Positions 6,001-27,725 of a stretch of 33,625 nucleotides of DNA are shown one piece after another (position 1 is the first letter of the stretch; each line of letters opens with the position of its first letter). A model generated the notes under the pieces. That model did no database searches, was not told the origin of the DNA, and worked only from the letters and a program-made list of their open reading frames with translations. A program made the translations under genes and the position numbers. Origin of the DNA: Pirellulales bacterium (GTDB lineage Bacteria > Planctomycetota > Planctomycetia > Pirellulales > DATAWG01); contig DASZFO010000372.1 in the NCBI GenBank assembly GCA_035939775.1, positions 1 through 33,625 on the forward strand, in the 5' to 3' direction.

Positions 6001-7129
6001 TCGGGATCGTCGGATCGGGATTGAAGGAGAATCCGCGGTTGCCGAAGACGGCGTATGGCCCCGAATGCACGAGCGAGCGATCGTTGGCGTAAACGACGTG
6101 GCAAGCCGTGCAGCCGCTCGAGCGATAGTCGCCTGGATGGTCCATTGTGCCGTGAAAATTGAGCGTGGGGTCGAAGAGCCGAGTCTTCTGCAAGCCGATG
6201 AAGGTCGGATCAGTGCGGTTTTCGGTCCCCAAGCCGCGATTGCTCAGCCGAGTGCGCGGGCGGCCGGGGTCTTCTTCGCGCTCGGGGATGCCGACCTCGG
6301 GACGGAAACGGCCGCCGCGCTCGAAGATGCGAAGGATGTTGCCTGGCTGCGAGATTTCGAATCGCGGCAACGGATCGAGATAAGGCACGACCCCTTTCTC
6401 GGCAATCTCGCGCTCGTTCGGCGGCGGCACGGTTTGAATCCGCTGCGGACTGCCGAGCATGCTGTAACTCTCGCCATAGTGCGGAGACTTGGTCGGGATC
6501 GAGCCGTTGTTGTATAGTGCGGCGCCCCAGAGCATGCAGCCGTGGGTCATCATGCTCTTGCGCACTTCGAGCACCTCGCGCTCGTGGCATACCCCACAAC
6601 TGATATGCGCCACGCGCAGGTCGCCGGGGTTCACGAAGCGAATGAATTCGGGAGACTCATGGTTCAAAAGCGTATACGAGCGCACCGGCTTGGCGCTGCC
6701 AGGCCAAGCGCCCGGGAACCGCGGCGCGACGTGAGCACATTCCTTCGTATCCGCCGCCGGATTGCCGCCGTGGCAATCGCAGCAACCCAATCGGACCGTC
6801 GCCTTGCCGTGCATGTCTTTCACGTTCTCATGGCAGACAATGCAGCCGCGGCTCTTGGCATAGGCGTCCGCTTCGGTCTGTTTGCTGAGATCGACGCCGA
6901 TCAGCTCGGGAGGGAATGGAAACGGCTCTTCGCCAGCGGGATTCTGTGGCCGAGCGAGTGGCGCAAGCGTCGCCGGTTGCAAGTTTGCGTCAGTCGTCGC
7001 GCGACTGCTCGCGCGAACGACATCATATTGAGGCTCGGCGGCCCGGCTCGATAGAGCCGCGGCGGCCGCCAGCGATAGCAGCACGGCGATTGCCAAGAGC
7101 CGTCGTGGTATGTAATTCCGTGATCCCAT
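3056..7129 (-). CDS. Giant decahaem cytochrome c with C-terminal LVIVD beta-propeller
   Basis: This is a 1357-residue exported protein. ATG 7129 is preferred over the upstream TTG 7153: an AAGGA ribosome site lies nine bases before it, and the protein then opens with a signal peptide ([18 protein letters not shown], Ala-rich cleavage zone). Ten CXXCH haem sites are visible in the first 850 residues, including CIVCH, CCDCH, CGVCH, CTACH, CLVCH, two CIDCH, CITCH, CFGCH and CTDCH. From about residue 960 to 1290 at least five LVIVD-type repeats follow (for example [20 protein letters not shown]), predicting a beta-propeller. The end is proline-rich. Its start overlaps the end of the beta-barrel-like gene upstream, so the two are co-transcribed. 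The likely role is periplasmic or surface electron transfer; the electron acceptor or substrate is unknown. Confidence 0.9.
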
Positions 7130-7138
7130 CAATGGACA

Positions 7139-7143
7139 TCCTT
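7139..7143 (-). promoter_or_regulatory. Ribosome binding site fixing the decahaem cytochrome start
   Basis: The minus strand reads AAGGA here, nine bases before ATG 7129. It lies inside the longer TTG-initiated frame, so it argues that translation begins at 7129 and not at 7153. Confidence 0.6.
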
Positions 7144-7149
7144 GTCGCG

Positions 7150-9540
7150 TCAATAGAGTAATTTCACATCAAGAAAGCTGGCGAACAGGGCGCCGATTCG
7201 GCCGGCTTGCGTTCGGTATATGTCTTCAAAACCTTGGCCGGGGATCAAGCTCTGAATCCCGGTGTCAATGATGCAATTGTTGTTGAGCCACGGACGATAC
7301 TCGAAGCCGAGGCCGAGGTCGGTGCCGATGCTCTGATGGATGTTGGGCTGAAACACGAACTGCTCGATCACGGCCGTTTCGTCGAACCAGAGGAAGTTGA
7401 CGTTGCTGATCACTTTCAGCTTTGGTGTGACCTCGAAATCCATGCCAAGATTGGCGATGAACACGCCAGGGTTCACGAAATTGGATTGACCCTCGGTCTT
7501 CGACGAGCGCAGATCCGGCACCAGGCTGAACGGTTGCTTCAGGTTCACGCCGAGCAGCTTGATCGGCTGCCGCTGCCAGTAGCTGAACGGCCCTCCGGCG
7601 AAGTTCGGATCATCGAGGATCGTGTCGAAACCATGAGCTTCGGTGTCGAACGGATTGCTGTCTCCACTCGCGTAAAAGATCGACGACCGGAATCGGATCC
7701 AATCGCTGTCGTACGACAATTCGACCGCCGCCATTTCAGCGCTGATCCTCTCCGGCTGCCCGGCCATCGGGTTCAGGCTGTCCTGGCCGAAGACCCAATA
7801 GAAGGCATGATCGACGTTCAGGCGGTTGATATGCCCGTCGCCGGCCCAGCCCAGATAACAAGCGTCGATCGTGTGCGGCTGGAAAATGCCGACCGGATCG
7901 GGGCGGACGAGGAAGCCGTTTTTGTCGTAGTGCAGGCTGGCGTCGTCATGGTTGTAGTGGATGCTGAGCTGCGTCGTGTAGCCGGGCCAAATAAAGTCCT
8001 GCCGATAATAGTTGGCGATCAACACCTTCTGTCCGCGGTCGTCGAACGTATTGAGATCGCTGTTCGTGTCTTTCTCAAGCTGATCGAAGAAGGCGACGTT
8101 GAACTGATCGCGGTTCGAGAGCCGAGTGCCGAACAGGCGGACGGCCCGATTCGTGTCGTCGAAGATGAAGCCGCGGAAATCGCTGTTGAAGGGCTGCGAG
8201 CCGGCGCGGAGGGAGACGAAATCGTAGTTCGGGCTTAAGTCGGCAAGCTTCGTTTCGGCGAACCATTCCTGGAGCGTGAACCACGTCCGCCCGCGTGTAT
8301 GCCCGCGAGTCACGTCCGGGCTGACGACCCCCAATTCTTCGACGTCGAGAAAGTTCACGTTAAAGATCGGCGTGAGCTTCAGTCGCCAATCGACGGGCTT
8401 GAATGAGGAATCGCCGTGCACGAGATCGAAGGAGACGCTCAGATTCTCCTGAAAGACGAACTGATTCGGGTTGCCGAAGAACTCGCTCTCGCCGGGGTTC
8501 GCGGTACTCTCGCCGCTAGGGGTCGGCACTTGCCGCGTCTCGAGCTGCGTGTCGCTCACGGCCGTGATATTGAGAAACGTATGCTGGCCGATGATCGGAT
8601 AGTCTCCCTTGAGCACGTTCTGGTTGTAGGAGTCCCAGCGGTCTCCTTCGACGTACGGATAGTCATCGATGAGCGGATGGCCTTTTCCGTAGCGGTCCCA
8701 GGGAGTGAATCCCAATCGCCAGCGGTCTTCCAACGGCACGAAGTCGCTCGTGCTCTGCCCTTCGCGCGGCAAGACGCCCGAGCGGCCGGTGAATCCCAAC
8801 GGCGGCGGCTCGGGATAGCGCAGCAATGTGCCCGGCACGATTGGCTCGACCGGCAGATCATCCCAAGGCGGCGGCAGCTCGGTCGGCGATTTCAGCACCG
8901 GCGGACTCGAATCGGACTGTCGGTTCGGCGCGTCGTTGAATGGCGCGCCGAGCGTCGTCTGCTTCGCGGCGGCCACGACCGTTGGCTGTATCGATCGAAA
9001 TGTTGTTTCTGGCGGCGGTCCGCCGATGGCTCGACCCCGATCGTCACCATGCGCGTCGGCCGGCGCCTCGAAGGTGGCTTGGACAACGCCATTCGCTCCG
9101 CCGCGCGAGTCACGGTCCGAGGCCAGATTCGTGAATTGGTTCGGCGGAGCGACGAACGGACTTGGCGCCGGCGCGGCGACCGGAGCGGACATGCTGTCCG
9201 AATAATCCCATTGCACATCGACGAACACGTTGGGAACTGGTGCTTGCCAGCTCGCTGCTGCCGCGCTGATTGGCACCGGCGAAGATTCCGGCGAATTCAT
9301 CGCTGAGCTGGCAGCCCATGTCGTTGCCGCGTCATTCGCTCGCGTCCCGCCGTGAAAGAGCAGCCAAAGTGCAACGACGAGGCACCACCCGCCGCGCCGC
9401 TTAAATCGCGGGGGTCTCTCAGCAATCGTCTCGATATGACGCACAATAGAAATGGCTGTCGTTCCCGTAGTTGCTCGACGCGCGAACTCGCGCGATCCAG
9501 TGCTCGCCGAAATTCGAGCTTGCTTGCATCGCCGCGACAC
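7150..9540 (-). CDS. Outer-membrane beta-barrel-like (porin-type) protein
   Basis: This is a protein of up to 796 residues. The start is uncertain: GTG 9540 gives a long N-terminus before the hydrophobic signal segment ([11 protein letters not shown], residues 52-62), while GTG 9444 would place it in a normal signal-peptide position; neither has a clear ribosome site. Residues of about 70-250 are Ala/Pro-rich and probably disordered. From about 260 onwards the sequence alternates short polar turns with amphipathic strands rich in Tyr, Phe and Trp ([30 protein letters not shown]) and ends in an aromatic residue (VKLLY), as outer-membrane barrels do. It is the first gene of a pair with the decahaem cytochrome. 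Together they resemble porin-cytochrome conduits in organisation, though the proteins are not recognisable MtrB or MtrA. Confidence 0.75.
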
Positions 9541-9767: not shown

Positions 9768-9830
9768 CGGCTTAACGACTGTGCTGGCCGAATCTTGAAG
9801 TAGGTGGACGGATCGGCAAGGAATCGACTC

Positions 9831-11858
9831 ATGGCAAAATCAGATCGAGTGCGCGGGCGGAAGCTCTCGATCGAGCGGCTCGAGCCGCGTTTGGCGCTGA
9901 ACGCGCAACCGGTGATCACGCCGAGCGACGTCAATAGTTTGCTCCAGCGCGCCGCCGCGGCCGCCTCGCGCAACGACGCGATCATCGCGGTGGTCGACCG
10001 CAACGGGAGCATCTTGGGAGTGAAGGTCGAGTCGGGCGTCAGCGTCTCGCTGCAAGGCCAGCCAGTCACTCCGGCAAACCAATTGAACGCGCTGGTGTTC
10101 GCCATCGACGGCGCGGTCGCCGAGGCCCGCACCGCGGCTTTGTTCTCGAACAACAACGCCCCGCTCACGTCGCGCACGATCCGCTTTATCAGCCAATCGA
10201 CGATCACGCAGCGCGAGGTCCAATCCGATCCCGATCTCAACGATTTGACTTCGCCCTATCAGGGTCCCGGCCTCATCGCTCCGGTGGGCTTAGGCGGAGA
10301 ATTCCCCGCAGGGATCATGAACACTCCGCAGGTCGATCTGTTCGGCATCGAGCTGACGAATCGCGATAGCCTACTCGACGCCGGGGCGGATGGAATCAAG
10401 GGAACCGCCGACGACATCGTGCTGCCGAATCGCTTCAATATCCCGACGGCGAATCTTGCCCTCGATCCCACTACATTAACGCCAATCACGTTGGTCGCGC
10501 CGGAATCGTATGGCTACGTTTCGCAGATTCTGGTCGATTCGCAGTCGCGCGGCGTGGCGACTTTGCCCGGCGGCGTGCCGCTGTTCAAGAACGGCGTGCT
10601 CGTAGGAGCGATCGGCGTTTTTTTCCCCGGCCCTTACGGCTATGCCGATTTCGAGCAGACGTTCAACACGATTCCTTCGAATAACGCTAATGCCGAGGCC
10701 GCCCGCGAGAATGGCGAGGTCAATTCGCCGTACACCGACTTGGCCGAATGGATGGCGTTCGCAGCGGCGGGCGGCACTCGCGCGACGGCGGCGGGGCAAT
10801 CGGGCTTGAGCGGTGCGCTGTTTCCGGTTCACACCGTCGGTGGAGTGCCCGAGGTTTCCGGCTACGGTCTACCGCTGGGGCAGATCAATCTGGCGGGCAT
10901 CACGCTCGACATTTACGGACCCAACGGCCCGTTCCTCGGCGTTCAAGAGCTTCGCCACGAGGCGAGCATCGCGGGAGTGGGCAATCCCAATAGCAGCTTA
11001 TCGCTTGGCGCATTCAATCCGGGCAATTCGCTGGCGCTCGATTCGCTCGCGCATTATGCGACCGGAACGCCGGTGCCCGACGGCTGGCTCGTCGTGCCGC
11101 ATGGGACGGACGTCGCCGGTCAGTATCAAATCATCAAGCAAGGTGTTCTGCAGGCAATGGCGACCCGCGCGCAGATTCGTCTGCCCCTCGGCACCCCGAC
11201 CGCGATGGTCTTTTCCGTGTCGGACTTGAATGGGAATCTGCTGGCGCTCTATCGGATGCCTGATGCGACCGTTTTCTCGATCGACGTGGCGGTGGCCAAA
11301 TCGCGCAACGACGCTTACTACGATGATCCGGCGCAACTTATTTCGGCCGACATGGTGAGCAACACGCCGGGTGGGCCGGCGGTGGTGCCGGCGGGCACGG
11401 CCTTCTCTTCCCGCACCTACCGCTTCCTCGCCGAGCCGCGGTATCCGATCGGCACCAGCGGCACTCCGCCCGGGCCGTTTTCGAGCTTGATCGATCCGGG
11501 CATCGATCCGACGACGGGAGACACGATCGGCACGCCGCTGCCAGCTTCCGCTTACTCCGGCATGACGACGAGTGTGCTCGGCTTTGCGGCATTCAATCCG
11601 AATCGCAACTTCCGCGATCCGAACAACATTGCGAACCAGGACGGCGTGGTGTTCTTCCCGGGCAGCTCGCCGCTATACATCGGCGGAGTCATTACGTTCG
11701 GCTTGGGCGTGAGCGGCGACGGCGTGGATCAGGACGACGTGGTCACGGCCGCGGCGATGGCCGGCTTCGCGCCCGTCCCGGCGATCCGGGCCGATCAATT
11801 CTTCGTGCGCGGCGTGCGCCTACCGTTCATGAGCTTCGATCGGAACCCGCAAGGCTAA
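9831..11858 (+). CDS. Secreted protein with two GlcG/HbpS-like haem-binding-type domains and LEPR motif
   Basis: This is a 675-residue protein. ATG 9831 has AAGGA eight bases upstream. The N-terminus RKLSIERLEPRLALNA is a variant of the LEPRxLL motif that marks many exported planctomycete proteins. Two domains resembling GlcG/HbpS (DUF336, known to bind or degrade haem or small metabolites) are visible. The first is near residues 30-125 (AIIAVVDRNGSILGVKVE, later FAIDGAVAEARTAALFSNN). The second is near residues 450-520 (MVFSVSDLNGNLLALYRMPD, then SIDVAVAKSRNDAYY). Between and after them lie Gly/Pro-rich segments such as GVFFPGPYGYADF. Haem or cofactor handling would suit the cytochrome-rich neighbourhood. 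The function is inferred from fold resemblance only. Confidence 0.85.
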   Translation: MAKSDRVRGRKLSIERLEPRLALNAQPVITPSDVNSLLQRAAAAASRNDAIIAVVDRNGSILGVKVESGVSVSLQGQPVTPANQLNALVFAIDGAVAEARTAALFSNNNAPLTSRTIRFISQSTITQREVQSDPDLNDLTSPYQGPGLIAPVGLGGEFPAGIMNTPQVDLFGIELTNRDSLLDAGADGIKGTADDIVLPNRFNIPTANLALDPTTLTPITLVAPESYGYVSQILVDSQSRGVATLPGGVPLFKNGVLVGAIGVFFPGPYGYADFEQTFNTIPSNNANAEAARENGEVNSPYTDLAEWMAFAAAGGTRATAAGQSGLSGALFPVHTVGGVPEVSGYGLPLGQINLAGITLDIYGPNGPFLGVQELRHEASIAGVGNPNSSLSLGAFNPGNSLALDSLAHYATGTPVPDGWLVVPHGTDVAGQYQIIKQGVLQAMATRAQIRLPLGTPTAMVFSVSDLNGNLLALYRMPDATVFSIDVAVAKSRNDAYYDDPAQLISADMVSNTPGGPAVVPAGTAFSSRTYRFLAEPRYPIGTSGTPPGPFSSLIDPGIDPTTGDTIGTPLPASAYSGMTTSVLGFAAFNPNRNFRDPNNIANQDGVVFFPGSSPLYIGGVITFGLGVSGDGVDQDDVVTAAAMAGFAPVPAIRADQFFVRGVRLPFMSFDRNPQG

Positions 11859-12286: not shown

Positions 12287-13345
12287 TTAGATATCCACCG
12301 CGAAATCCTCACGCGCCAATTGCAACTGGCAGGCGTCCGAAGCGCAGCTTGCATCGCGAAGCGAGTCGGCCAGCAACCGTTCAGCTAGGTGCTCAATCCG
12401 ATTCAATTCGGCATCGCCTCGCGCCGGTTCGTGGTGGCCGAGATGAAGCATTCGGACACAGGCCGCGACCGCGGTTGCGACGGCCGCCTCGACGGTCGAA
12501 TGACCCCAGCCGTGCAGCACGCGCGGGGCTGCATCGCCGATACCGATCTTCCCGTCGTATTCCGCCGCTAGATACTGGGCGTCGGCGTAGAGCAAATCGG
12601 CATCGCGGGCAAACTCGGCCAGCCCTTGGTCGGGCGTCTCCAGATGCTCGTGATCGGTCGCGAAGACGAACTTGCGCCCGCCGCGCTCCAAGCGGTAGGC
12701 AACGCAGCCGCCCGGATGGTTGAGGGCATACGTTTTCATGGTCGTTTGGCCGATGTAAAACTCCGCGCCGATCGCGATCGCGCGAAACTCCTTGATGCCA
12801 CTCATCTCGGCATAGTTCGTCGGCACATAGGTGCGCGACAACTGCGCCCGCTCGCCGAACACGGCCTCCAGATTGTCGAGCACACCTTGCGGCGCCCAAA
12901 GCGTGAAATGATTGGTCGAATCGTAGAGCGGATCGACAAACGGAATCGCCACGATATGGTCGATGTGCGAATGGGTCAGCAGGATATGCGCCGCGCGGCG
13001 GCCGCGGAAATCAGGCGCACTCCAGCGTCGGTTCAACTCGCGCCCCAAGTCGCGAAATCCGCTGCCGCAGTCGAGAATGATCAGCTCGCCGGGCGTTTCG
13101 ACTTCGACGCAGGTGCTATTGCCGCCGTAAGTCGATCGCAAGTGCAGCGGTACGCGGCTCTCCAAATGCCGCCGGATTGTCGCTAAATCCGGCTGGCCGT
13201 GAACGATTTCAGCGAGCGATTCATCGTCGAGCAAATGCTGGATGGCCAGCGCAAGCTTGTCGGTCACCTCGCCGGGGCTCAAGCTGCGGGCGAGGGTGCC
13301 GGTGACGCCCCAATACCTAATCCGGAATTGTCGGCTGTCGTCCAT
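12287..13345 (-). CDS. Metallo-beta-lactamase-fold hydrolase
   Basis: This is a 352-residue protein starting at ATG 13345 (MDDSRQFRIRYWGVTGTLA), the usual opening of PhnP/RNase Z-type members; a longer frame to 13396 adds an unlikely 17 residues. The binuclear zinc site is clear: THSHIDHI (HxHxDH), an Asp in FATDHEH, a His in LNHPGG, and later LHGWGHST and LHLGHHEP. An STYGGNSTCVEV segment and an ILDCGSGFRDLG strand fit the same family. The substrate is unknown: relatives cleave phosphodiesters, cyclic phosphates or RNA. It faces the preceding genes and lies only a few bases from 12278, so the two units converge. Confidence 0.88.
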   Translation of the reverse strand: MDDSRQFRIRYWGVTGTLARSLSPGEVTDKLALAIQHLLDDESLAEIVHGQPDLATIRRHLESRVPLHLRSTYGGNSTCVEVETPGELIILDCGSGFRDLGRELNRRWSAPDFRGRRAAHILLTHSHIDHIVAIPFVDPLYDSTNHFTLWAPQGVLDNLEAVFGERAQLSRTYVPTNYAEMSGIKEFRAIAIGAEFYIGQTTMKTYALNHPGGCVAYRLERGGRKFVFATDHEHLETPDQGLAEFARDADLLYADAQYLAAEYDGKIGIGDAAPRVLHGWGHSTVEAAVATAVAACVRMLHLGHHEPARGDAELNRIEHLAERLLADSLRDASCASDACQLQLAREDFAVDI

Positions 13346-13480
13346 CGATGGGCGGCAAATGGCGAAAAGAGACCTGGGCGGCCATAGGTTCGGCATCTCT
13401 CAGAATAGCAGGCCAGGCCGGCGGCAAGTAGCTGGCGCTGAAAATTGACATTTTTCGCGGGCCGTGCTACAAAACGCCAT

Positions 13481-13586: not shown

Positions 13587-14573
13587 ATGTTAGTCAACCG
13601 CCAGAATCTCGCATCGCATTACGGTTGGTGCGGTGTCTTTATCGTGGGAACGGTTGCGGCCATCGCGTGGTATGCGATTTTTAGCCGCGGTGCTGCCCAG
13701 TGGCCGGGGGGAAGCAGCTTGCCGGGGCTCGTCTGCGGCGCTCTGGCCGGGGCGATTATCTTGTTCGAGTTTCTCCTCTGGCCCCGCAAAACGCTGGTGC
13801 GGGTCTGGCGGATCGGCCGCACGCAAACCTGGATGCGAGCGCATATTTGGCTTGGGCTGTTGGCGGTGCCGTTGGTTGCCGTTCATGCCTGGAAAGAACT
13901 CGGCGGAACGCTCAGCACCATGCTCGTGGTGCTGTTTGCGATCGTGATCGCCAGCGGTGTTTTTGGCTTGGTGCTGCAACAGATTCTGCCGCGCGTGATG
14001 CTCGAACGCGTGCCCGCCGAGACGATCTACTCCCAAGTTGACCGCATGGCTCGGCAGTATTGCGACGAGGCGGATGAACTGGTGTCGGCGATTTGCGGTG
14101 TGCCGGCCGATGAGGACTCGAAATCGACATCGGTCGAACGCGGCGATCCGGTCGAGGCGGCGGTCGCGACGACTCACGTCACGATCGGCGCGATGAGGAG
14201 CATCGGGGCCGTCCGCGGTCGCGTTTGGCAGATGCAAGCGGCCGTGACCGCGGTTCCTGATTCGGGGGTGCTGCGGACGGCCTTTTCGTCGATTATCCGC
14301 CCTTATTTGCTCGCCGGCCGCAGGTCCGGATCGGTGTTGGCGAATGAATTACAAGCCGGAAGCTTCTTCGCAGGACTCAAGGGCAAGCTGCCCGCTCCAG
14401 CACACACGGCGGTCGATCAAGTCGAAGGGCTTTGCGACCAACGCCGGCAGTTCGATTTGCAAGTGCGGCTGCACGCCTGGTTGCACGGCTGGTTATGGGT
14501 CCATCTGCCGCTGTCGGTCGCGCTCGTGCTGCTGATGTTCGTTCACATCTTTGTCGCATTGAAGTACTGGTAA
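13587..14573 (+). CDS. Dihaem b-type cytochrome-like integral membrane protein
   Basis: This is a 328-residue protein with predicted membrane helices near residues 13-33, 46-66, 85-103, 109-131 and 303-325, plus a soluble loop of about 150 residues in between. His86 and His100 lie 14 apart on one helix, and His306 and His320 lie 14 apart on the last helix. This is the spacing by which two b haems are held by paired helices in cytochrome b561, NarI and ferric-reductase-like proteins. It is the first gene of the electron-transfer run, and the membrane decahaem protein follows after a short repeat. It probably passes electrons across the membrane between the iron-sulphur proteins or quinone and the c-type haems. 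The direction is unknown, and no exact family could be named. Confidence 0.8.
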   Translation: MLVNRQNLASHYGWCGVFIVGTVAAIAWYAIFSRGAAQWPGGSSLPGLVCGALAGAIILFEFLLWPRKTLVRVWRIGRTQTWMRAHIWLGLLAVPLVAVHAWKELGGTLSTMLVVLFAIVIASGVFGLVLQQILPRVMLERVPAETIYSQVDRMARQYCDEADELVSAICGVPADEDSKSTSVERGDPVEAAVATTHVTIGAMRSIGAVRGRVWQMQAAVTAVPDSGVLRTAFSSIIRPYLLAGRRSGSVLANELQAGSFFAGLKGKLPAPAHTAVDQVEGLCDQRRQFDLQVRLHAWLHGWLWVHLPLSVALVLLMFVHIFVALKYW

Positions 14574-14674: not shown

Positions 14675-16222
14675 ATGCCGCGTGAAACTGGCAAGCAGCG
14701 AGCCTCCGGGATTCCGCTGGACTACTTTCGCCATCGCAATTCGCTCGATCGTGGCAAGCTGATTCTGGCCGCGGTCGTTGCGGCCGTCACGGCGGGGTGG
14801 CTTTCGGCCGGAAGTCTGTCCGGACACCGTGCAGCGGCTTGGTATTCCCCAGGACAAGTGAGCGCGGCCCACGCCATGTGGGAGAACGATTGCTCGGCTT
14901 GTCATGTCAGCTTTACACCGATTGCCGGCGATGCGGCAGCGGCCGAATTGTTCGGCGACAAGGCCGCGATCGACGCCAAGTGTCAAGCCTGTCACAACGT
15001 CGCAGGCAAAACGAACTCGCTCGGACATCACGCCTCGAAGGACCCGGCGATGCTCGCGTGTTCGAATTGTCATTTTGAGCACCGCGGGCGGACGGAATCG
15101 CTCGTGCGCATGGCCGACGCATCCTGCACGAGGTGCCATGCCGACATCGAGGCCCATCGCGAAGTTCCGTCACTTCGTCCGCAGTCAATCCAAAACGTCA
15201 GCCGGTTCGACGCGGAACATCATCCTGGGTTCCGCTCGATCGCGACCGACCCGCGGACGCTAAAGTTCACTACCGCTACGCACCATTTGCACCTGACGCC
15301 GGGCCTTGCCGCGGATGCCAAGCACCAGCCGGTGATGACCGTCGGCATGCTCAGCGCGGCCGACAAGACGCGGTATGCGCTGCCGGGACAAAAGGACGCC
15401 GATTTAGTTCAGCTTTCCTGCGGCTCCTGCCATCAACTGAGCGGGACGGTGCTCGGCGCGGGCACTGGCCGACTTCGCTGGCCAGTGCTACCCAGCGCGC
15501 CAGTGCCACCCAGTGAGTCGGCGGCGCCCAGCGCCTCAGTGAAATCGACAGGCGGCGCTTATATGCAGCCGGTCGTTTTCGAGAACCAATGCAGCGCCTG
15601 CCATCGGCTGACGATCAATCCGGGGCAGGACTTTAAATCGGACATGAAAGTCGCCGGCGACGTCGTAGCTCACCGGTTGCAACCGGCCCAACTTGCGACG
15701 GAGGTGCGCCGCTATTGGGGAGATCGGTATTTGCACGATCATCCCGCGCAGCTCGCGCGCAATTTGCCGCTGCCGAGCCATCCAAGGGAACTTGAAAACC
15801 GCGACGCCCGCGAATGGATCCGCGACAACGCTACCGGCTCCTTAAATCATTTGCGCACGGTATGCTCCGAGTGCCACGAACTTGGCGGTGTGGCTGCGGA
15901 AAAGCTGTCGCTTGACGGCGAGGCCCCAGGGATTCTCCCGCCACCGGTCCTTCCGGTGCAGGTTCCGCACCCATGGCTGGAACATGCGAAATTCGATCAT
16001 TCGGCCCACCGGAGCGTCAATTGCCGCGATTGCCATGCAGGAGCCTATCCGTCCGATGCCGGCGTTCAAGCGGGACCAAGTACCTCCGCGCCGATGATTC
16101 CCGGCCGCGAAACTTGCGTTCGATGCCACGGCCCGCGTGACGAATCATCCGCTCCGCCGCGCGGCGGGGCGCGATTCGATTGCGTTGAATGCCATCGCTT
16201 CCACAACCGCGACGAACCATGA
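14675..16222 (+). CDS. Membrane-anchored decahaem cytochrome c
   Basis: This is a 515-residue protein with one membrane helix near residues 28-48 and no clear cleavage site, so it is probably anchored with its body in the periplasm. Ten CXXCH motifs begin at residues 73, 103, 129, 151, 249, 306, 397, 450, 481 and 503. Extra histidines (HH, HLH) around residues 118-206 could be distal ligands. Residues of about 262-292 form a Pro/Ser/Ala linker encoded by a palindromic repeat (15462-15488) that appears to have inserted in frame. The stop overlaps the ATG of the NuoEF gene (ATGA at 16219), showing tight coupling. It probably accepts or donates electrons to the dihaem b protein. Confidence 0.92.
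   Translation: MPRETGKQRASGIPLDYFRHRNSLDRGKLILAAVVAAVTAGWLSAGSLSGHRAAAWYSPGQVSAAHAMWENDCSACHVSFTPIAGDAAAAELFGDKAAIDAKCQACHNVAGKTNSLGHHASKDPAMLACSNCHFEHRGRTESLVRMADASCTRCHADIEAHREVPSLRPQSIQNVSRFDAEHHPGFRSIATDPRTLKFTTATHHLHLTPGLAADAKHQPVMTVGMLSAADKTRYALPGQKDADLVQLSCGSCHQLSGTVLGAGTGRLRWPVLPSAPVPPSESAAPSASVKSTGGAYMQPVVFENQCSACHRLTINPGQDFKSDMKVAGDVVAHRLQPAQLATEVRRYWGDRYLHDHPAQLARNLPLPSHPRELENRDAREWIRDNATGSLNHLRTVCSECHELGGVAAEKLSLDGEAPGILPPPVLPVQVPHPWLEHAKFDHSAHRSVNCRDCHAGAYPSDAGVQAGPSTSAPMIPGRETCVRCHGPRDESSAPPRGGARFDCVECHRFHNRDEP
15462..15488. repeat. Palindromic repeat inside the decahaem cytochrome gene
   Basis: GCACTGGCC (15462-15470) and GGCCAGTGC (15480-15488) form a nine-base stem with a nine-base loop. 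A further CCAGTGCCACCC follows at about 15500, repeating the sequence CCAGTGCTACCC that ends the palindrome. The segment encodes a low-complexity linker with no haem motif. It looks like a dispersed repeat tolerated in the reading frame. Confidence 0.55.
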
Positions 16223-17988
16223 TCGTTCAAGAACTTTACAAGATTCAACACCGGCACGGCTTTCTCCCGGCCGACGAGTTGCGTGGATTGTCGGAGCGGA
16301 TGGCGGTGCCGCTTTATCGGTTGCACGAGGTGGCGAGTTACTTTCCGCACTATCGCTTGCAGCCGCCCTCGACGGTTGAAGTTCGGGTCTGCCGCGACAT
16401 GGCCTGCCACCTGCACGGCAGCACAGACTGCCGCAAAGCGCTCGAGCAGATAGCGAGCGAAATCGGCGGCTCGCAAGTGAAAGTGGATGGCGCTTCGTGC
16501 CTCGGGCGGTGCGACGGGCCGCCGGCAGTCGCCATCAACGATCAAGTGTACTGGGGCAAATCGGCGATGGAATTGGAGTCGATCATTCGAGGCGCGCTCG
16601 CGGGTCAGCCATTGCCCCACCAGCATGGCGACACGGGGCCGCTCGAATGGAAAATCGATCCTTATGCGGGAGAGCCGCTGTACGAGGTCGCCCGGCGGTT
16701 AATCGAATCCTGGAAGGCCGATCCCGACACGGACCGCCAGCGGAAGCGGATTCGACTCGGGGATCCGGTCCTCGCCGCGCTCGAAGCGGCCAAATTGCGC
16801 GGCATGGGGGGAGCGGCGTTTCCCACCTTCAAGAAATGGTCGATCGTCCGCGGTGCGCCGGGTTCGCCAAAGTATTCCGTTTGCAACGGCGATGAAAGCG
16901 AGCCGGGCACGTTCAAAGACCGCGAGTTGCTCCGCCGCGCGCCGCATCTGGTGATCGAAGGGATGATCGTGGGCGCGCTCGTTACCGGCTGTGAGCGCGG
17001 CTGGATTTTCATCCGCCACGAGTACGAGCAAGAGATCCAATGTGTTCGCCGCGCGTTGGCCGATGCCGAGCGACAAGGCGTTTGCGGCCAACGCCTGCTC
17101 GGTTCCGATCTTTCATTTCCGCTGGAGGTGTTCGTCAGTCCCGGTGGCTATATCTGTGGCGAGGAGACGGCGCTGGCCGAAGTACTCGAAGATCGCCGAG
17201 CCGAGCCGCGAAACAAGCCGCCGCTAATGTCGCTTGAAGGATTATTCGGCAAGCCAACTTCGATGAACAACGTGGAGACGTTTTCCTGGGTCCCCGCGAT
17301 TCTGACTCACGGCGGCGCCTGGTATCGCGATCAGGGGATCAATGGCGCCACGGGATTGCGGCTCCATTCGATCAGCGGCGATGTGAATCGGCCGGGAGTA
17401 TACGAGATCCCCTTCGGCCTGACGCTCGGCGAACTGGTGAACGGATTGGCCGGCGGAATCCGCGGCGGGCAGCGCCTCAAAGCGGTCGCCACGAGCGGCC
17501 CCTCAGGAGGTTTTCTCCCGCCGCAAATTCCGCTCCCCCGCGAATCGCACCATTTCACCGAAGGCCTTGTGAAGCGCAAAGTCGTCGCCGAGGGGGCCGA
17601 ATCGCTCGATCTGCTCACGATGCCGCTCGATCCGGATTTGTTTCGGCCATTCCCAGACTTTATGCTAGGGGCGGCCATCGTCGTGTATGGTGACCGAGCG
17701 AACCTGCTCGAACAAGCGCTCAACTGCGTCGAGTTCTTTCGCAACGAATCCTGCGGCAAGTGTGTCCCCTGTCGGATCGGCACGACCAAATTGGCCGCGA
17801 TGCTCCGCGAGCGCTTGCAAAGCAACGAATCGACCGATTTCAGCCTCGTCGGCGAATTGGCAGACGCGATGTTCACGACCTCAATCTGCGGCCTCGGCCA
17901 AGTCGCCCCCAGCCCGATCCGCTCCGTGATGAAATACTTTCCCGAGGAACTCTCTTGTCGTCCGAAGCTGAAGAATTCGAAGCCCTGA
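16219..17988 (+). CDS. NuoE-NuoF fusion: NAD(P)H-binding flavin/iron-sulphur subunit
   Basis: This is a 589-residue protein starting at ATG 16219, which overlaps the previous stop. Residues 1-130 are NuoE-like, with a thioredoxin-fold [2Fe-2S] site: Cys58 and Cys63 (CRDMAC), Cys94 and Cys98 (CLGRC). Residues of about 150-570 are NuoF-like: the FMN loop LRGMGGAAFPTFKKW (near 193), the NAD-binding CNGDESEPGTFKDR (near 222), GGYICGEETAL (near 309), and a [4Fe-4S] site Cys512, Cys515, Cys518 and Cys557 (SCGKCVPC, ICG). Such fusions occur in soluble NAD-dependent formate dehydrogenases and NADP-reducing hydrogenases. Here neither a catalytic dehydrogenase nor the membrane Nuo subunits are nearby, so it is likely the NAD(P)H port of the adjacent cytochrome system. 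It acts in the cytoplasm. Confidence 0.93.
   Translation: MIVQELYKIQHRHGFLPADELRGLSERMAVPLYRLHEVASYFPHYRLQPPSTVEVRVCRDMACHLHGSTDCRKALEQIASEIGGSQVKVDGASCLGRCDGPPAVAINDQVYWGKSAMELESIIRGALAGQPLPHQHGDTGPLEWKIDPYAGEPLYEVARRLIESWKADPDTDRQRKRIRLGDPVLAALEAAKLRGMGGAAFPTFKKWSIVRGAPGSPKYSVCNGDESEPGTFKDRELLRRAPHLVIEGMIVGALVTGCERGWIFIRHEYEQEIQCVRRALADAERQGVCGQRLLGSDLSFPLEVFVSPGGYICGEETALAEVLEDRRAEPRNKPPLMSLEGLFGKPTSMNNVETFSWVPAILTHGGAWYRDQGINGATGLRLHSISGDVNRPGVYEIPFGLTLGELVNGLAGGIRGGQRLKAVATSGPSGGFLPPQIPLPRESHHFTEGLVKRKVVAEGAESLDLLTMPLDPDLFRPFPDFMLGAAIVVYGDRANLLEQALNCVEFFRNESCGKCVPCRIGTTKLAAMLRERLQSNESTDFSLVGELADAMFTTSICGLGQVAPSPIRSVMKYFPEELSCRPKLKNSKP
17944..17948 (+). promoter_or_regulatory. Ribosome binding site supporting a TTG start
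   Basis: GAGGA lies six bases before TTG 17955, inside the end of the NuoEF gene. It decides the start of the following iron-sulphur/cNMP protein; the frame stays open far upstream, but that part is antisense-like, Arg-rich shadow sequence. Confidence 0.65.
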
Positions 17989-20327
17989 TCGGCGATCAGC
18001 TTGTGACCGTCGGGCGGTCCCATGCCGATTTGCTCCGCCAGGGGACGATCGACCTTGAGATCGACGGGCACAAGGTGACCACCTCGCGCGTCAAGACCTT
18101 TGCCGACGCCACGGGCAAGGTCATCTCGACGCGGCTGATGACGATCTACGACGCCGCCACTCAGCTATATGACGAGCATCTCAGGGAGAAAAACCCAATT
18201 CCGCTGCTCTGTCATCGCGAACACATGACTCCGGCTGCCGTCTGCCGCGTTTGTATGGTCGAGGTCAAGGGGCAGCCGCGCTTGGCCCCAGCCTGCCAGC
18301 GGCCGATCGAGCCGGGGATGACGGTCTCGACGATCAGCACCAGCCGAAAGGTGCAGTCGGCGGTGAAAATTCTCACCGAACTCCTCGTGGCCGATCATAT
18401 CCGCCCGCGCGAAACCGGTCGGCAATATGGCGACAACGAGTTGGCGCTATTGGCCGACCGCATGCAAATCTCGGAGCCACGATTTCCAAAGGCCACAAAC
18501 GACCGCGGCCAGGACGAATCGTCGCTGGTGATCGCAGTGGACCACAACGCGTGCATCCTGTGCGATCGCTGCGTGCGGGCCTGCGACGAGGTCCGCCGCA
18601 ACAACGTCATCGGCAGGATGGGGAAGGGCTATTCGGCCCGGATCGCCTTCGATTTGAACGACCCGATGGGGAATTCGTCGTGTGTGGCGTGCGGCGAGTG
18701 CATGATCTCCTGCCCGACCGGCGCCCTGACGAATCGGGCCGTAGTCGACCTTACCTCGGTGGTGGCCGATTCGCCGGGGGCGACGCTCGTCCCAGCCGCT
18801 GAACTGGCCGAGAATCCGCTTTTCTCCGGAATCTCGCGCCCGTTCCTGGAATGGAACCGGGGGGCCGTGATCCGACGGAGTTTCAAGAAAGGGGAAGTCA
18901 TTTGCCGTGAAGGGGAATTCGGCTCAACAGCGTTTGTGATGGAACGCGGCAAGTTCGAGGTCCGAATCCGCTCGCCGCTCAGCCACGTCGCCTCCGTGAA
19001 AAAGGGACTGTTGGGATTCTTCGGGCGATTGGCAAACGGGCTTACTCGCCGCGATGACGATCGAGCGGCCGGCGGACAAGCAAATCGATTTATCCACGTC
19101 GATGCGCCGGTTTCATTGGAGTATGGCGATCCGGTTGCGATTCTGACGCCCGACGACGTGATCTTCGGCGAAATGACCTGCATGAGCCATTATCCGCGAT
19201 CGGCCACGGTGACGGCCGCGGAAGATTGCACGGTGCTCGAGATTCTTCGCAACGTGCTCTATATGCTTCAGCGCAACAAGGCCTCGAAGCGCGTTCTCGA
19301 CGATCTCTATCGTCGCCGCTCGCTTGAGACCCACCTGAAAAGCGTGCGCATTTTTTCGGAGGGGCTAGCCGACAAAACGGAGTTCGGCCGGTTCGTCGAT
19401 TTCCTCCGCAATCGGGTACAGTTGATCCGCGTCCATCCGGGCCAAGTGATCTTTCGCCAAGGCGATCGAGCCGACCATTTTTACATGGTCCGCGTCGGCT
19501 TCGTCAAAGTTTCGCAGAGCCGGCTCGGCGGCGAGCACGTGCTGAATTACATCGGCCCTGGCGGCTATTTCGGCGAGATCGGTCTGCTAGCCCATCTGCC
19601 CGAGATTCAGGCACTGGCGGCAACAGGGGTGCGCACGGCGACTTGCACCGCGCTCGACCACGTCGATCTGGTGCGAGTCGGCGGCGATGATTTTCGGGAA
19701 TTGGTCGAAGCGTTTCCCACATTGCGGCGGCAACTGGCAAAGCTGGCCATCGAGCGGTTGGAAGAAAACGAACGGGTCCGCACGCAGATCGAACACGTGC
19801 CGCTGGCAGAATTCTTGAGCCAAGGATTGATGAACGCTCAAAGTCTGTTGGTGCTCGATTTGGAAAAATGCACCCGCTGCGACGAATGCACGAAGGCCTG
19901 CGCCGACGCTCACGACGGCGTGACGCGACTGATCCGTGAAGGCTTACGATTCGATCGGTTCCTGGTGACCAGCTCCTGCCGCTCCTGTTTGGATCCCTAT
20001 TGCATGGTCGGGTGCCCGGTTGGATCGATCCGAAGGCGGAACAGCCGCGAGATCGTCATCGAGGATTGGTGCATCGGCTGTGGCAAATGCGCTCAGAATT
20101 GTCCGTATGGCAATATCAACATGCACGGTTTTATCACGGGCGAGCAGGCGCCCGATCCGCAGCGGCCGGAGCGGATGATCCCCGTCGTGCGGCAGAAGGC
20201 CACGACCTGCGATTTGTGTGCCAGCGTCGATGGCCAGCCGAGCTGCGTTTACGCCTGCCCGCACGACGCCGCGCATCGGATGAGCGGCACGGAGCTGCTC
20301 GATTTGGTCGACCTACGGGAAGGATAG
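17955..20327 (+). CDS. NuoG-like iron-sulphur protein fused to two cNMP-binding domains and a four-cluster ferredoxin
   Basis: This is a 790-residue cytoplasmic protein starting at TTG 17955 and overlapping NuoEF by 34 bases. In order, it has a NuoG-type [2Fe-2S] domain (Cys86, 97, 100, 114) and a remnant of the His/Cys domain with the His kept but its cysteines missing (near residue 148). Then come two [4Fe-4S] sites (CILCDRCVRAC from 200; CVACGECMISC from 243). Two cyclic-nucleotide-binding domains follow, at about 295-435 (phosphate cassette FGEMTCMSHYPRSATV) and 476-590 (FGEIGLLAHLPE, with a short insertion before RTAT). The tail (639-768) resembles DmsB/HybA, with four cysteine quartets. 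No molybdopterin domain is present. It probably carries electrons from the flavin subunit towards the membrane cytochromes. Whether it binds cAMP or cGMP is unknown, but cassette 1 keeps its Glu and Arg. Confidence 0.92.
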   Translation: MSSEAEEFEALIGDQLVTVGRSHADLLRQGTIDLEIDGHKVTTSRVKTFADATGKVISTRLMTIYDAATQLYDEHLREKNPIPLLCHREHMTPAAVCRVCMVEVKGQPRLAPACQRPIEPGMTVSTISTSRKVQSAVKILTELLVADHIRPRETGRQYGDNELALLADRMQISEPRFPKATNDRGQDESSLVIAVDHNACILCDRCVRACDEVRRNNVIGRMGKGYSARIAFDLNDPMGNSSCVACGECMISCPTGALTNRAVVDLTSVVADSPGATLVPAAELAENPLFSGISRPFLEWNRGAVIRRSFKKGEVICREGEFGSTAFVMERGKFEVRIRSPLSHVASVKKGLLGFFGRLANGLTRRDDDRAAGGQANRFIHVDAPVSLEYGDPVAILTPDDVIFGEMTCMSHYPRSATVTAAEDCTVLEILRNVLYMLQRNKASKRVLDDLYRRRSLETHLKSVRIFSEGLADKTEFGRFVDFLRNRVQLIRVHPGQVIFRQGDRADHFYMVRVGFVKVSQSRLGGEHVLNYIGPGGYFGEIGLLAHLPEIQALAATGVRTATCTALDHVDLVRVGGDDFRELVEAFPTLRRQLAKLAIERLEENERVRTQIEHVPLAEFLSQGLMNAQSLLVLDLEKCTRCDECTKACADAHDGVTRLIREGLRFDRFLVTSSCRSCLDPYCMVGCPVGSIRRRNSREIVIEDWCIGCGKCAQNCPYGNINMHGFITGEQAPDPQRPERMIPVVRQKATTCDLCASVDGQPSCVYACPHDAAHRMSGTELLDLVDLREG

Positions 20328-20332: not shown

Positions 20333-21949
20333 ATGCGGTGGTTATTCGCAGCGATTGTCGCGGCGGCCACGATGGCTTTGGCCGCTTGGCTCGCTGCCGC
20401 CGACTCGACTCCCGCACCAATGGCTCCGGAAACGATCTCGTCGCCCAGTCCCACGTCGCACCCGACCGATCCCGCCTCTGAAACGACCGCATCGATCGCT
20501 CGACGCTTTCTTGGTGTCAGTTCCTGCGCCTCAGTGGCGTGCCACGGCGGCCCGATCTCGGCCGATCCGAGCGCCAAGTGGCGCAGTTCGTATACCGTCT
20601 GGGCCACGATCGACAAGCACAGCCGCGCGTTTTCCGTGCTCTTCGAGCCGCGCTCGAAGCGAATTGTCCAGTTGCTCGATCATCTGCCGAGCGTCGATCA
20701 GGCTCGGCCGTATCAGGAAGAGCGCTGTCTGGCCTGTCATTCGACCGGCCAAAGTTTCCAGAAGACGGACACCAGCATTCTGGCCGACGGCGTCGGCTGC
20801 GAACTCTGCCATGGCCCGGCCCAGAATTGGCTCAAGAAACACACGGAGCGAGCCTGGCTCGATTCTCGCGCCGCCAAGTTCGAGCCATTGCCGGACATGA
20901 CCGACACCCGCGACCTGCTCCCCCGAGCAATGGCTTGTGCGAAATGCCATGTCGGGTCACGAGAGCCAGGCCAGCCGGCCCGCGACGTGAATCACGACCT
21001 GATCGCCGCGGGCCATCCGCGGCTCGATTTCGAGTTCCACGCTTATTCGGGCGTAATGCCGAAGCATTGGACGGATGAACCAGGAAAGAAACCAAACTAC
21101 AAGACCGATCGCGAGACGCACGCCGCGGCCTGGGCCATTGGCCAAGCGGTCTCGGCGGAGGCGGCGCTTAAGCTCATCGCCGCTCGCGCGGTGGCGGACA
21201 AACCGCAATCGGTTGCTGCCGCGAAGACATTGCCGATCGCCCGCCATCCCGAATTCTCGGAATACGACTGCTACGCTTGCCATCATGAACTCAGCAGCAA
21301 GTTCCCCAGCAGCCGCCAGGCGCTTGCCCGAATGGATCCCAGCCATCATTCGCCTGGATCATTGCCGAGGAGTACGTGGTATTTCACATCTCCCCAACTG
21401 CTGAGCGACGCCCAGTCCGGGTTAGCACCGGCGGGCCAACTCGCGAAATCGCTAACCAAACTCATTGGCGGCACGTGGTCGCCGGACGATCCGTCGACAG
21501 CGGATCAAAATGTCGCGGAATTGGCCGCGTCCATGCGCCATCTGGCCGAGGCAGAAGCCAAAGCGTCATGGGACGAATCGATGATCGACCGGCTACTAGC
21601 CCGCGCGACCGATGTTTCCACACTCGCGCCGAATTGGGACAGCGCCGCGCAGCGGTTCCTCGCGATCGAGGCGCTGTTGGCGGCGCGGCGCGAGTTGCCT
21701 TCGCGATTGGGTCAAGCCGCGTCGGCCGAAGAACTTGAGATCGATCAGGCGCTCGGAGAAATTCACAAGCTCCTCGAATTCCGAATTGACGCCAGCACGG
21801 GGTCGAGCGAACCCGTCAAAGGGGCAACGGATCACGCCGCGCCGCGGATTGACAGCCCGCGCGGCTACGATCCGCTCGCCGTGCAACAGGCATTTTCTCG
21901 AGTCTTCGCGGCCATCGGCAAGACGCTGCGCGTCGGGGAGAGTAAATGA
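20333..21949 (+). CDS. Cytochrome c554-like multihaem protein
   Basis: This is a 538-residue protein. ATG 20333 follows GGAAGGA and a five-base gap from the previous gene. Residues 1-23 form a signal peptide or anchor. Haem sites: an unusual CX4CH (CASVACH, residue 65), then CXXCH at 132, 156, 202 and 313. GVGCELCHGPAQNWLKKH and the AGHPRLDFEFH segment are typical of the cytochrome c554/HAO-like superfamily. The C-terminal 200 residues have no haem sites and are helical and Ala-rich. It forms a pair with the next gene, which shares the same plan. It is probably periplasmic, either an electron carrier or the site of substrate turnover; catalysis cannot be claimed. Confidence 0.88.
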   Translation: MRWLFAAIVAAATMALAAWLAAADSTPAPMAPETISSPSPTSHPTDPASETTASIARRFLGVSSCASVACHGGPISADPSAKWRSSYTVWATIDKHSRAFSVLFEPRSKRIVQLLDHLPSVDQARPYQEERCLACHSTGQSFQKTDTSILADGVGCELCHGPAQNWLKKHTERAWLDSRAAKFEPLPDMTDTRDLLPRAMACAKCHVGSREPGQPARDVNHDLIAAGHPRLDFEFHAYSGVMPKHWTDEPGKKPNYKTDRETHAAAWAIGQAVSAEAALKLIAARAVADKPQSVAAAKTLPIARHPEFSEYDCYACHHELSSKFPSSRQALARMDPSHHSPGSLPRSTWYFTSPQLLSDAQSGLAPAGQLAKSLTKLIGGTWSPDDPSTADQNVAELAASMRHLAEAEAKASWDESMIDRLLARATDVSTLAPNWDSAAQRFLAIEALLAARRELPSRLGQAASAEELEIDQALGEIHKLLEFRIDASTGSSEPVKGATDHAAPRIDSPRGYDPLAVQQAFSRVFAAIGKTLRVGESK

Positions 21950-23457
21950 AATCGCGCCTCGCGCTAGTCCGACCTGGCATCGCCGCGGCGCTAGCGCTGC
22001 TCGCGCCGGCCGCTTGGTTCGGCTTCGGGCTGGGGGCCGGAGCAGACGGTCAAGGTGTCCCCGCACTCAATGCCGCAGAGAAGCCGGAATCGCCGTCGGC
22101 CCGATATATGGGGACCGCCTCCTGCTCGCTGTGCCACGACAACGGCTCCCCTCGATTCCCTACCGACCTGGTCAGTCTAAACGAGTATCACATCTGGGCA
22201 GCCGACGACAAGCAAGATCGCCACGCCGCCGACGTGCATCATTTGGCATATAAGGCGCTAGTCGGCCCTCGGGCGAAGGAAATCGAGCAGGCAATGGGGC
22301 GGCCCGACGGCTGGGCGACCACCGCCGAGAGCGGCTGCTTAAGTTGCCATTCCGCGAACCTGCACGCCAATAATTGCGATCACTCACTAAATATCCCGGT
22401 GGAACTCGCGCAAGGGGTCGGTTGCGAGGCCTGCCACGGCCCGGCATCGCTCTGGATCGACAAGCATTGGAAGCGCTCCGAGTGGCGCGACGACAAGCAG
22501 CTTTCCGCGGAGGCGAAGCAAGATCGCTACAAGTTGACGAACGTTCGCGATCCTGTCGCGCGGACGGAGCTTTGCCTTTCGTGCCATCTCGGCAATAGGA
22601 CGGAGGGAAAGTTCATTACACACGAAATGTTCGCCGCTGGCCATCCGCCGCTGCCGCCGTTTGAAATCGAGGCGTTTCTAGACAACATGCCGCGACATTG
22701 GCGGCCCGCCGCGGAAAAGCCGCCCGACGCGCAGGCGTATCTTGGCTTTCGTCCGCTCGAGCGAACGCGGGCAGTCGTCTTGGAAGGATTGATCGAATTA
22801 CGAGCTTCAATCCGATTGCTCGCCGAACAGACGAAGGAGTCCCGGCCTCCCAACGCCGAGCCGAATCGCGGCGTGTCAGATTTCGCGCTCTACGATTGCG
22901 CCGCCTGCCACCACGAACTCATCATTCCGAGCCAGCGGCAGGAGCGAGGCTACAATGACTTCGCTCCCGGCCGGCCGGCGCTGCGCTATTGGGCTTTGCC
23001 ACTGGCCGAGCTTGGCCTGGGCGCCGTCAAGCCGGATGATGCTGCGTCAGATCGGACAAAGCTCGAAGCGATTCTGTCGCCACTGGCGGCCGCTGCAAAC
23101 GAATCACCGTTCGGCCTGCCGGCTGCGATTGGCGCTGCGGCGCACAAAGTCGCTGCCGAACTGGACAAGTCGATCACGTCACTCGCGGCGAAAGATTTTG
23201 ACACGGCCAGCGCCAAACGGATGCTCGCTCAGGTGTGCCGAATTGGCAGCGATTCGCCGCTGGATTACGATTCGGCGCGGCAAATGACGTCGGCGATCGA
23301 GGCAATCGTTGCCGATTTGGGAGACAAGCTCGACACAAACTCCGTCGCAGCGGCCGAGTCGCTCTTGCGTGGGACGTCATTGACCAACACTTCGGGTTTC
23401 GACCCCGAAGACTTCCGCGCCAAGCTCAAAAACCTCGCCAATGCTTTGGCACATTAG
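21946..23457 (+). CDS. Cytochrome c554-like pentahaem protein
   Basis: This is a 503-residue protein whose ATG overlaps the previous stop (ATGA, 21946-21949). Residues 10-32 form a signal peptide or anchor. CXXCH motifs start at 60, 131, 160, 210 and 318. The order CSLCH, CLSCH, GVGCEACHGPASLWIDKHW, ELCLSCHLGN, AGHPPLPPFEIEAF and YDCAACHHEL follows the preceding protein motif by motif, so the two are diverged paralogues. The C-terminal part is again haem-free and helical. Here the first site is a normal CXXCH, whereas its partner has CX4CH. It is the last gene of the electron-transfer run. Confidence 0.9.
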   Translation: MKSRLALVRPGIAAALALLAPAAWFGFGLGAGADGQGVPALNAAEKPESPSARYMGTASCSLCHDNGSPRFPTDLVSLNEYHIWAADDKQDRHAADVHHLAYKALVGPRAKEIEQAMGRPDGWATTAESGCLSCHSANLHANNCDHSLNIPVELAQGVGCEACHGPASLWIDKHWKRSEWRDDKQLSAEAKQDRYKLTNVRDPVARTELCLSCHLGNRTEGKFITHEMFAAGHPPLPPFEIEAFLDNMPRHWRPAAEKPPDAQAYLGFRPLERTRAVVLEGLIELRASIRLLAEQTKESRPPNAEPNRGVSDFALYDCAACHHELIIPSQRQERGYNDFAPGRPALRYWALPLAELGLGAVKPDDAASDRTKLEAILSPLAAAANESPFGLPAAIGAAAHKVAAELDKSITSLAAKDFDTASAKRMLAQVCRIGSDSPLDYDSARQMTSAIEAIVADLGDKLDTNSVAAAESLLRGTSLTNTSGFDPEDFRAKLKNLANALAH

Positions 23458-27080: not shown

Positions 27081-27518
27081 CTACGCGGTCTTAAGCAAAC
27101 GACGCGTGACGTTTAGTTCGTATTGAATCGGATAATCGTTGTTGGCAATCACCTGTCGCCCCAAGTGCCGCTGGAGGTTGACCACCAGCGGGGCTTTAAG
27201 GTTTAGGGTGATTGTGCCCTCGTTCTTGCCGACGATGACCAACACTTGGGCCTGCCGCGGCTCGGTCAGTTCGAGCGGCGCAAGTTCACTTCGCGACACG
27301 CGCAATTGGTAGCCTGCCACAAACCGACGTGGGCTAATCACCGCCACCGCGATTTCGCGACGCGCCGTGCTCTGCAGCCAACCCAAGGCATCGTTCTCGG
27401 CATCCGCCAGCAAGACCCATTCGCGGCAATCCTCCAGCCCGAGGATTCCCGCGGGAAAGAGAAGCCGATCATTGGCGCCGACTTCGAGCCGACCGAAACG
27501 AGTTGTGTTGATCCACAT
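27081..27518 (-). CDS. fliW: Flagellar assembly factor FliW
   Basis: FliW binds CsrA and releases flagellin mRNA from repression; free flagellin in turn titrates FliW, giving a homeostatic loop known from Bacillus. The start at ATG 27518 yields [20 protein letters not shown], which fits the family; a longer frame from 27560 adds 14 unlikely residues. Length is 145 residues. Family hallmarks are [17 protein letters not shown], a [20 protein letters not shown] strand pair, and the end [16 protein letters not shown]. It is followed directly by csrA and then flagellin, the order expected for this partner-switching circuit. Confidence 0.93.
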
Positions 27519-27725
27519 CTTCTCTGCCTCCGTGCAAATCGGGTCCTCCTGACCATGCATTGACTACATCGGACGTGGAGGCGATTACGGAAAAGAAAAT
27601 GTCTCGGCAATATACGAAGTTAGGGCGGTCCGGCACGGCCCCACCACTGTTCGCCTCGGCATTGCCGTTTCAGACGACATAAACCGAGGAATTGTCCTGG
27701 GCCTGCCGCAATCCGTCCCACACCA

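Follow-up and report, generated by a model that had tools for sequence, protein, structure and literature searches.

The protein described here is probably a seven-cluster Fe-S 'wire' leading from NADH to a chain of haem proteins that reaches the outer membrane. It is encoded in the window (the whole stretch of 33,625 nucleotides of DNA that was analysed), and it joins in a single chain a HoxU/NuoG-like half, two cyclic nucleotide-binding (CNB) domains in tandem and a four-cluster half that resembles DmsB. We consider it very probable that, as an Fe-S protein, it carries electrons in a chain running from NAD(P)H to cytochromes. Judging from its sequence, there is a good chance that the first of its two phosphate-binding cassettes would bind a cyclic nucleotide; that binding of this ligand would then control the flow of electrons is about an even matter, perhaps slightly better. 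Table 1 places the features on the window.

Table 1. Positions of the focus protein, of its parts and of the neighbouring genes in the window
Feature	Positions	Strand	Basis or remark
Giant decahaem cytochrome, LVIVD repeats	3056..7153	-	Distant ExtM match
Predicted outer-membrane porin	7150..9540	-	Signal-like N-terminus, C-terminal aromatic residue
Two HbpS-like haem-binding domains	9804..11858	+	Pfam PF03928; linked in many loci
Metallo-beta-lactamase-fold hydrolase, possible cyclic-nucleotide phosphodiesterase	12287..13396	-	
Membrane protein, predicted dihaem cytochrome b (His 86/100, 306/320)	13587..14573	+	Conserved His
Membrane-anchored decahaem c-type cytochrome	14675..16222	+	10 CxxCH, N-terminal hydrophobic segment
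NuoE-NuoF fusion (NADH diaphorase)	16189..17988	+	Pfam 2Fe-2S_thioredx, Complex1_51K, SLBB, NADH_4Fe-4S
Focus protein, 790 aa	17955..20327	+	HoxU/NuoG-like half, CNB1, CNB2, four-cluster DmsB-like half
[2Fe-2S] cysteines 86, 97, 100, 114	18210..18296	+	Invariant in 74/74
Dicluster cysteines 200/203/206/210 and 243/246/249/253	18552..18713	+	Invariant in 74/74
CNB domain 1, beta4-beta5 insert with predicted amphipathic helix	18795..19274	+	Pfam PF00027; AF2
Phosphate-binding cassette 1, FGEMTCMSHYPRSATV (E406, R415)	19164..19211	+	E, R and spacing 9 in 74/74
CNB domain 2; C-helix to residue ~614, directly before four-cluster half	19293..19790	+	AF2
Cassette 2 (E541, R560), 10-residue insert	19569..19655	+	E, R in 74/74
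Four DmsB/HybA-type [4Fe-4S] quartets	19869..20258	+	16 cysteines, 74/74
c554-like multihaem cytochrome	20333..21949	+	
Second c554-like multihaem cytochrome, 5 CxxCH	21946..23457	+	

Translation of the open frame 17955-20327 (+) into 790 residues begins with a TTG at 17955, with which the ATG starts of several relatives align; a GAGGAA Shine-Dalgarno sequence stands a few bases 5' of it, and the gene overlaps by 34 nt the end of the NuoEF gene (stop at 17988). A chance open reading frame is ruled out at this place, as the protein is conserved at hundreds of loci. Pfam recognizes Fer2_4, a Fer4 dicluster, two cNMP_binding stretches (PF00027, 115 bits for a cutoff of 27.5, E 1.6e-33) and C-terminal Fer4 modules. 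Together with alignment, this bears out the domain order that an earlier note had read from the DNA alone: one [2Fe-2S] and two [4Fe-4S] sites, two CNB domains, then four cysteine quartets. Not one of the 28 cluster cysteines varies among 74 full-length relatives (from Planctomycetota, Acidobacteriota and one Rokubacteriota record), a conservation that goes far beyond chance.

That the first three sites are of NuoG type, as the note had it, needs to be qualified. The same three sites are there, but among named proteins this half comes closest to NADH-dependent [FeFe] hydrogenase A6, to HoxU and to formate dehydrogenase alpha, not to NuoG, and the NCBIfam cutoff for NuoG is not reached (67 bits versus 470). 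In a full-chain AF2 model (pLDDT 76.3, with a modest pTM of 0.65), the structural matches of the N-terminal half are NfnABC, complex I and formate dehydrogenase (FDH; Z about 19-20). With the N-terminal domain of HoxU, HydA and FDH-alpha it has in common a [2Fe-2S] and two [4Fe-4S] clusters in the same order, adjoining a NuoEF diaphorase. It differs from them in that the His-Cys3 site usual for this half is degenerate across relatives and lost in the window protein (74-sequence alignment), in being without a hydrogenase, FDH or quinone module, and in being followed by the CNB pair and the four-cluster half. The latter (quartets at residues 639-649, 675-687, 706-716 and 752-768) shares its four cysteine quartets with ferredoxin subunits of the DmsB/HybA/HycB type, and a haem-b membrane protein is its partner. 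Unlike those subunits, it is fused to CNB domains and usually also to a diaphorase subunit, and its partner is a decahaem cytochrome, not a molybdoenzyme or a hydrogenase; the DmsB equivalog cutoff is not reached (42.5 bits versus 214.1).

In known CNB structures, the glutamate of the phosphate-binding cassette contacts the ribose 2'-OH and the arginine contacts the phosphate. The claim that cassette 1 retains the Glu and the Arg of a ligand site is well founded, E406 and R415 being invariant, with a spacing of exactly 9, in all 74 relatives; the accompanying claim that both contact the cyclic phosphate is right for the arginine, while the glutamate would be expected at the ribose. Canonical Glu, Arg and spacing recur in those remoter relatives that were read, at about 29-36% identity, as well as where extra sequence separates the two CNB domains and in the split gene of one genome (G216, see below). 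The Glu-Arg spacing of cassette 2 is 9 in 39 of the 74 relatives and 19-24 in 31, the window protein being non-canonical; inserts are found in this cassette in about 40% of relatives, and it is degenerate in the remoter clade. When modelled alone, the CNB tandem gives pLDDT 86.5 and pTM 0.81, and its best structural matches are SthK, HCN, PKG and PKA, ligand-bound structures among them, as well as the cAMP-bound acetyltransferase Rv0998. CNB2 matches CNB-B of PKG II bound to a cGMP analogue (5jiz, Z 19.5, rmsd 2.1) and the cGMP-bound structure 5bv6 (Z 19.1). A predicted fold shared with ligand-bound structures is not proof of function. As a separate observation, the beta4-beta5 insert of CNB1 (18960-19106, residues 336-384) comprises a basic, amphipathic helix-like stretch, KKGLLGFFGRLANGL, which is present family-wide, remoter members included; from its sequence it might be a membrane or cytochrome b docking element.

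A scan of genome contigs gave 389 places that encode relatives. The best 80 of these 389, which were kept, come from Planctomycetota, in many cases from Acidobacteriota, and in one from a record titled Rokubacteriota; strong hits to the focus protein are found in 19 of 294 phylum genomes. Three records titled 'Candidatus Kuenenia stuttgartiensis' (L047, L100, L111) group with other Planctomycetota in the tree of the protein, and their names may be wrong. Many relatives consist of CNB-CNB-Fer4 only, the NuoG half being missing. Among seven such loci (L014-L020, neighbourhoods L115-L121), several keep cytochrome b, decahaem c, the giant cytochrome and the porin. Cytochrome b, the decahaem protein and a CNB-CNB-Fer4 chain are also found in a remoter clade (L125, L127, L128, L129, L130), where an FAD/NAD/2Fe-2S reductase, likely the electron input, replaces NuoEF upstream. 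In one member of that clade (L125:1980-4423), genes upstream of the cluster encode a Rieske protein and also a cytochrome b that has c-type haem sites. In G216 (L137:9973-13241; G216:C36), the gene is naturally broken after CNB2, giving two that adjoin: the first, NuoG-CNB1-CNB2, ends at 12618, and the second, for the four-cluster protein, begins a few bases on. Cassette 1 keeps its Glu and Arg there, and cassette 2 is altered (FGD). Remote relatives (L135, L138, L139) carry between CNB1 and CNB2 a long extra stretch that is FHA-like by eye.

Homologues in which the CNB domains are freely replaced, the case that the earlier note had set against itself, were looked for and none was found: every relative examined has both domains, and the idea that they are replaceable was rejected. 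Its example, a gate lying between the NuoG-like and the ferredoxin-like halves, does not hold in general, many relatives being CNB-CNB-Fer4 only and G216 being split after CNB2. The CNB pair is the constant junction, and such a gate is only one of the possible arrangements. What stays constant, as far as these architectures tell, is the CNB pair adjoining the four-cluster half, so that control at the four-cluster end, or at docking, is at least as likely. Another reading gives the pair a structural or docking role without ligand sensing: having lost the latter, and with its conserved Glu and Arg forming an internal salt bridge, it would be a scaffold that ties the four-cluster half to the diaphorase, or both of them to the membrane. 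The position of the pair at the junction in all variants, which survives the fission of the chain in G216, would suit such a scaffold, as would the conserved basic and amphipathic insert in CNB1 and the decay of cassette 2 in the remoter clade. Yet a scaffold would hardly demand that both ligand residues be 100% conserved in 74 relatives with the spacing of cassette 1 exact, and it would leave the recurrent linkage to cyclases and phosphodiesterases, presented below, without a reason; we regard it as unlikely, while granting it some weight.

The neighbourhood of the gene tells where the electrons might go. The window has, in order, cytochrome b, decahaem c, the NuoE-NuoF fusion, the focus gene and two c554-like cytochromes; the giant cytochrome and the porin lie upstream on the minus strand, followed by the HbpS-like gene on the plus strand. 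Window genes were compared by tblastn with the 80 loci. NuoEF adjoins the focus gene in nearly all of them, cytochrome b and the decahaem protein are present in most, c554-like cytochromes often accompany them, and the giant cytochrome and porin lie at most 10 kb away in many Acidobacteriota and several Planctomycetota. Across the 294 phylum genomes, cytochrome b occurs in the same 19 as the focus protein and in G216, the genome with the split focus gene; 17 of these 19 also have the giant cytochrome. The histidines of cytochrome b (86/100 and 306/320) are kept in 78-80 of 80 homologues. The decahaem cytochrome matches the DmsE family weakly, the giant cytochrome stays below the ExtM equivalog cutoff (64 bits versus 800), and the porin has no Pfam or NCBIfam match. 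Genes for the decahaem cytochrome, a barrel-like protein and a decahaem/LVIVD cytochrome are found linked, the barrel and the localization being predicted. Read from its genes, the conserved cluster looks like an NADH-to-envelope electron conduit. Beside it, flagellar genes are found: a large flagellin (24194-26545, -) and a gene that is FliW-like by sequence reading (27081-27560, -). At the contig edge, the window also contains a 16S rRNA 3' end (1-252, +), and it has a gene for tRNA-Met (32653-32727, +).

A chain of this kind could be run the other way, with cytochromes as the source of electrons and NAD+ as their acceptor; the CNB domains would then gate reverse transfer, a possibility compatible with ligand sensing. 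NuoEF-type diaphorases are reversible, and a porin-cytochrome conduit can carry electrons either way. However, two unrelated types of NAD(P)H-oxidizing input, NuoEF and the FAD/NAD/2Fe-2S reductase, are used upstream in different clades, so that NAD(P)H fits better as the donor, and an energy-coupling subunit for uphill transfer was not identified in the cluster. Reverse flow is therefore, in our estimate, improbable to much the same degree as a mere scaffold.

Evidence of yet another sort comes from the enzymes that handle cyclic nucleotides. A class III cyclase (PF00211) is encoded upstream of the L125 cluster and was used as a tblastn query against the 80 loci (L035-L114). Cyclases of this class stand beside the cluster in 18 of them, for about 1.2 expected from a background of 0.79 per Mb (160 cyclases over about 202 Mb in 37 of these genomes, 14 of which had been picked because of a hit) and 1.46 Mb of flanks; the Poisson P is about 7e-16, ignoring shared ancestry within clades. 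At four loci (L065, L071, L074, L112), the adjacent cyclase is the only one found in the genome. The adjacent-cyclase label undergoes at least 8 changes on the protein tree, and the architectures differ, CHASE2-, GAF- and FHA-GAF-linked, so that these cyclases appear, from sequence comparison, to have been gained repeatedly and from different subfamilies. They retain the metal-binding Asp pair. PDEase_II (PF02112, cAMP-phosphodiesterase-like) is above cutoff at L054, L057 and L111, with a homologue at L100. The window's own cluster is without a cyclase, its genome having four on other contigs, and most relatives with adequate flanks have none nearby. That a genome has a cyclase somewhere is weak evidence as such: 18 of the 19 genomes with the focus protein have one, as do 190 of the 275 others (Fisher p 0.01), and both genome size and phylogeny confound the comparison. 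Position is the stronger evidence, and of all that is new in favour of ligand sensing, the linkage counts most. The hydrolase gene at 12287-13396 was considered as a sure phosphodiesterase and rejected as such: it matches RNase Z and phosphodiesterase models weakly, and stays a possible one. At two loci (L093:3013-5480, where the cyclase is FHA-GAF-linked, and L112:2969-5422), a class III cyclase is followed by a homologue of this hydrolase beside the conduit cluster, and the two might form a pair making and breaking a cyclic nucleotide.

CNB folds can accommodate other ligands, and the domains might here sense one of these, or a redox or gas signal as does the haem-binding CooA, the linked cyclases regulating something else. 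HbpS-like haem-binding proteins are among the cluster neighbours, and in the alignment the cyclases of Planctomycete clusters miss the usual adenine-specifying residue pair, which would be in line with such a role; against it, those of Acidobacterial clusters carry the K/T pair expected of adenylyl cyclases. CNB domains have indeed diverged to other ligands, but families such as CooA have non-canonical cassettes (PMC2246266), while Glu and Arg are kept here, and we find this alternative distinctly less probable than the two preceding ones. Finally, an ordinary subunit of a complex-I-like enzyme, hydrogenase or formate dehydrogenase with accidental domain fusions would explain the matches of the N-terminal half to HoxU, HydA and FDH alpha, yet it is very improbable, for catalytic subunits of complex I, hydrogenase and FDH were not recognized among the cluster genes analysed and the whole architecture is kept across Planctomycetota, Acidobacteriota and a Rokubacteriota record.

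Ligand sensing in the electron path, as the earlier note proposed, is thus well supported, if indirectly, because the phosphate-binding cassettes are invariant in their ligand residues, the CNB folds match ligand-bound structures and the linkage to cyclases and PDEase_II recurs; binding itself we infer. From what the sequences display (domains, clusters, conserved cassettes, gene neighbourhood, linkage to cyclases and phosphodiesterases), we also infer a direction and an order of steps for the electrons, an allosteric effect of the ligand and its sign. The focus protein would be the cytoplasmic Fe-S subunit of an NADH-driven conduit. Electrons from NADH would enter the FMN and 4Fe-4S centres of the NuoEF fusion. 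The HoxU/NuoG-like half would receive them at its [2Fe-2S] and [4Fe-4S] sites and hand them on to the DmsB-like half, whose four [4Fe-4S] clusters would deliver them to the dihaem cytochrome b and thence to the decahaem cytochrome c, the c554-like cytochromes and the outer-membrane cytochrome/porin pair. The tandem CNB module would be an insert with a regulatory role: a cyclic nucleotide, produced by class III cyclases that several lineages encode beside their cluster, would bind to cassette 1 and probably to cassette 2 as well. Binding would move the C-helix of CNB2 that leads into the four-cluster half, altering its docking on cytochrome b or the contact between clusters, and so turn electron flow up or down. 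Conduit and CNB control taken together, this mechanism seems to us moderately probable. A bolder version is put forward tentatively, its chances falling a little short of even: the respiratory carrier would itself be the second-messenger receptor, with cluster cyclases making and cluster phosphodiesterases removing the cyclic nucleotide, and the conduit would be switched directly, without transcription or phosphorylation.

Known CNB effectors such as PKA-R, PKG, the SthK/MloK1 channels and the mycobacterial acetyltransferase Rv0998 share with the focus protein the CNB fold and the Glu/Arg phosphate-binding cassette. PKA-R also has its CNB domains in tandem, and Rv0998 and the channels are, like the focus protein, not transcription factors; the difference lies in the effector part, here a multi-cluster electron carrier. 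A survey of CNB proteins is without the words ferredoxin and iron (PMC2246266). The Geobacter extHIJKLMNOPQS cluster (PMC5877670) and the Mtr and PCC conduits have multihaem cytochromes, a porin and an inner-membrane cytochrome b as well, whereas electron entry is predicted here from NADH via a soluble Fe-S/CNB carrier; the term 'cyclic nucleotide' is absent from the Ext paper. An ACIII-like cluster of Planctomycetota (PMC10732223) and porin-cytochrome clusters (PMC5615132) are described differently from the present one. Each of the domains is known; their combination, an Fe-S electron carrier with CNB domains, was not found described in the literature searched.

Planctomycetota and Acidobacteriota are common in soil and water, and their anaerobic or extracellular respiration is poorly understood. 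If the present reading is true, a widespread NADH-to-envelope conduit would be defined in both phyla. Were gating true, this would be a new kind of system; with binding and gating both true, it would be, within the literature searched, the first electron-transfer chain under direct cyclic-nucleotide control. Bacterial second-messenger signalling would then be tied to respiration with gene expression unchanged; indeed, the two built-in sensors suggest that cells may switch respiration directly by a messenger of the cAMP/cGMP type.
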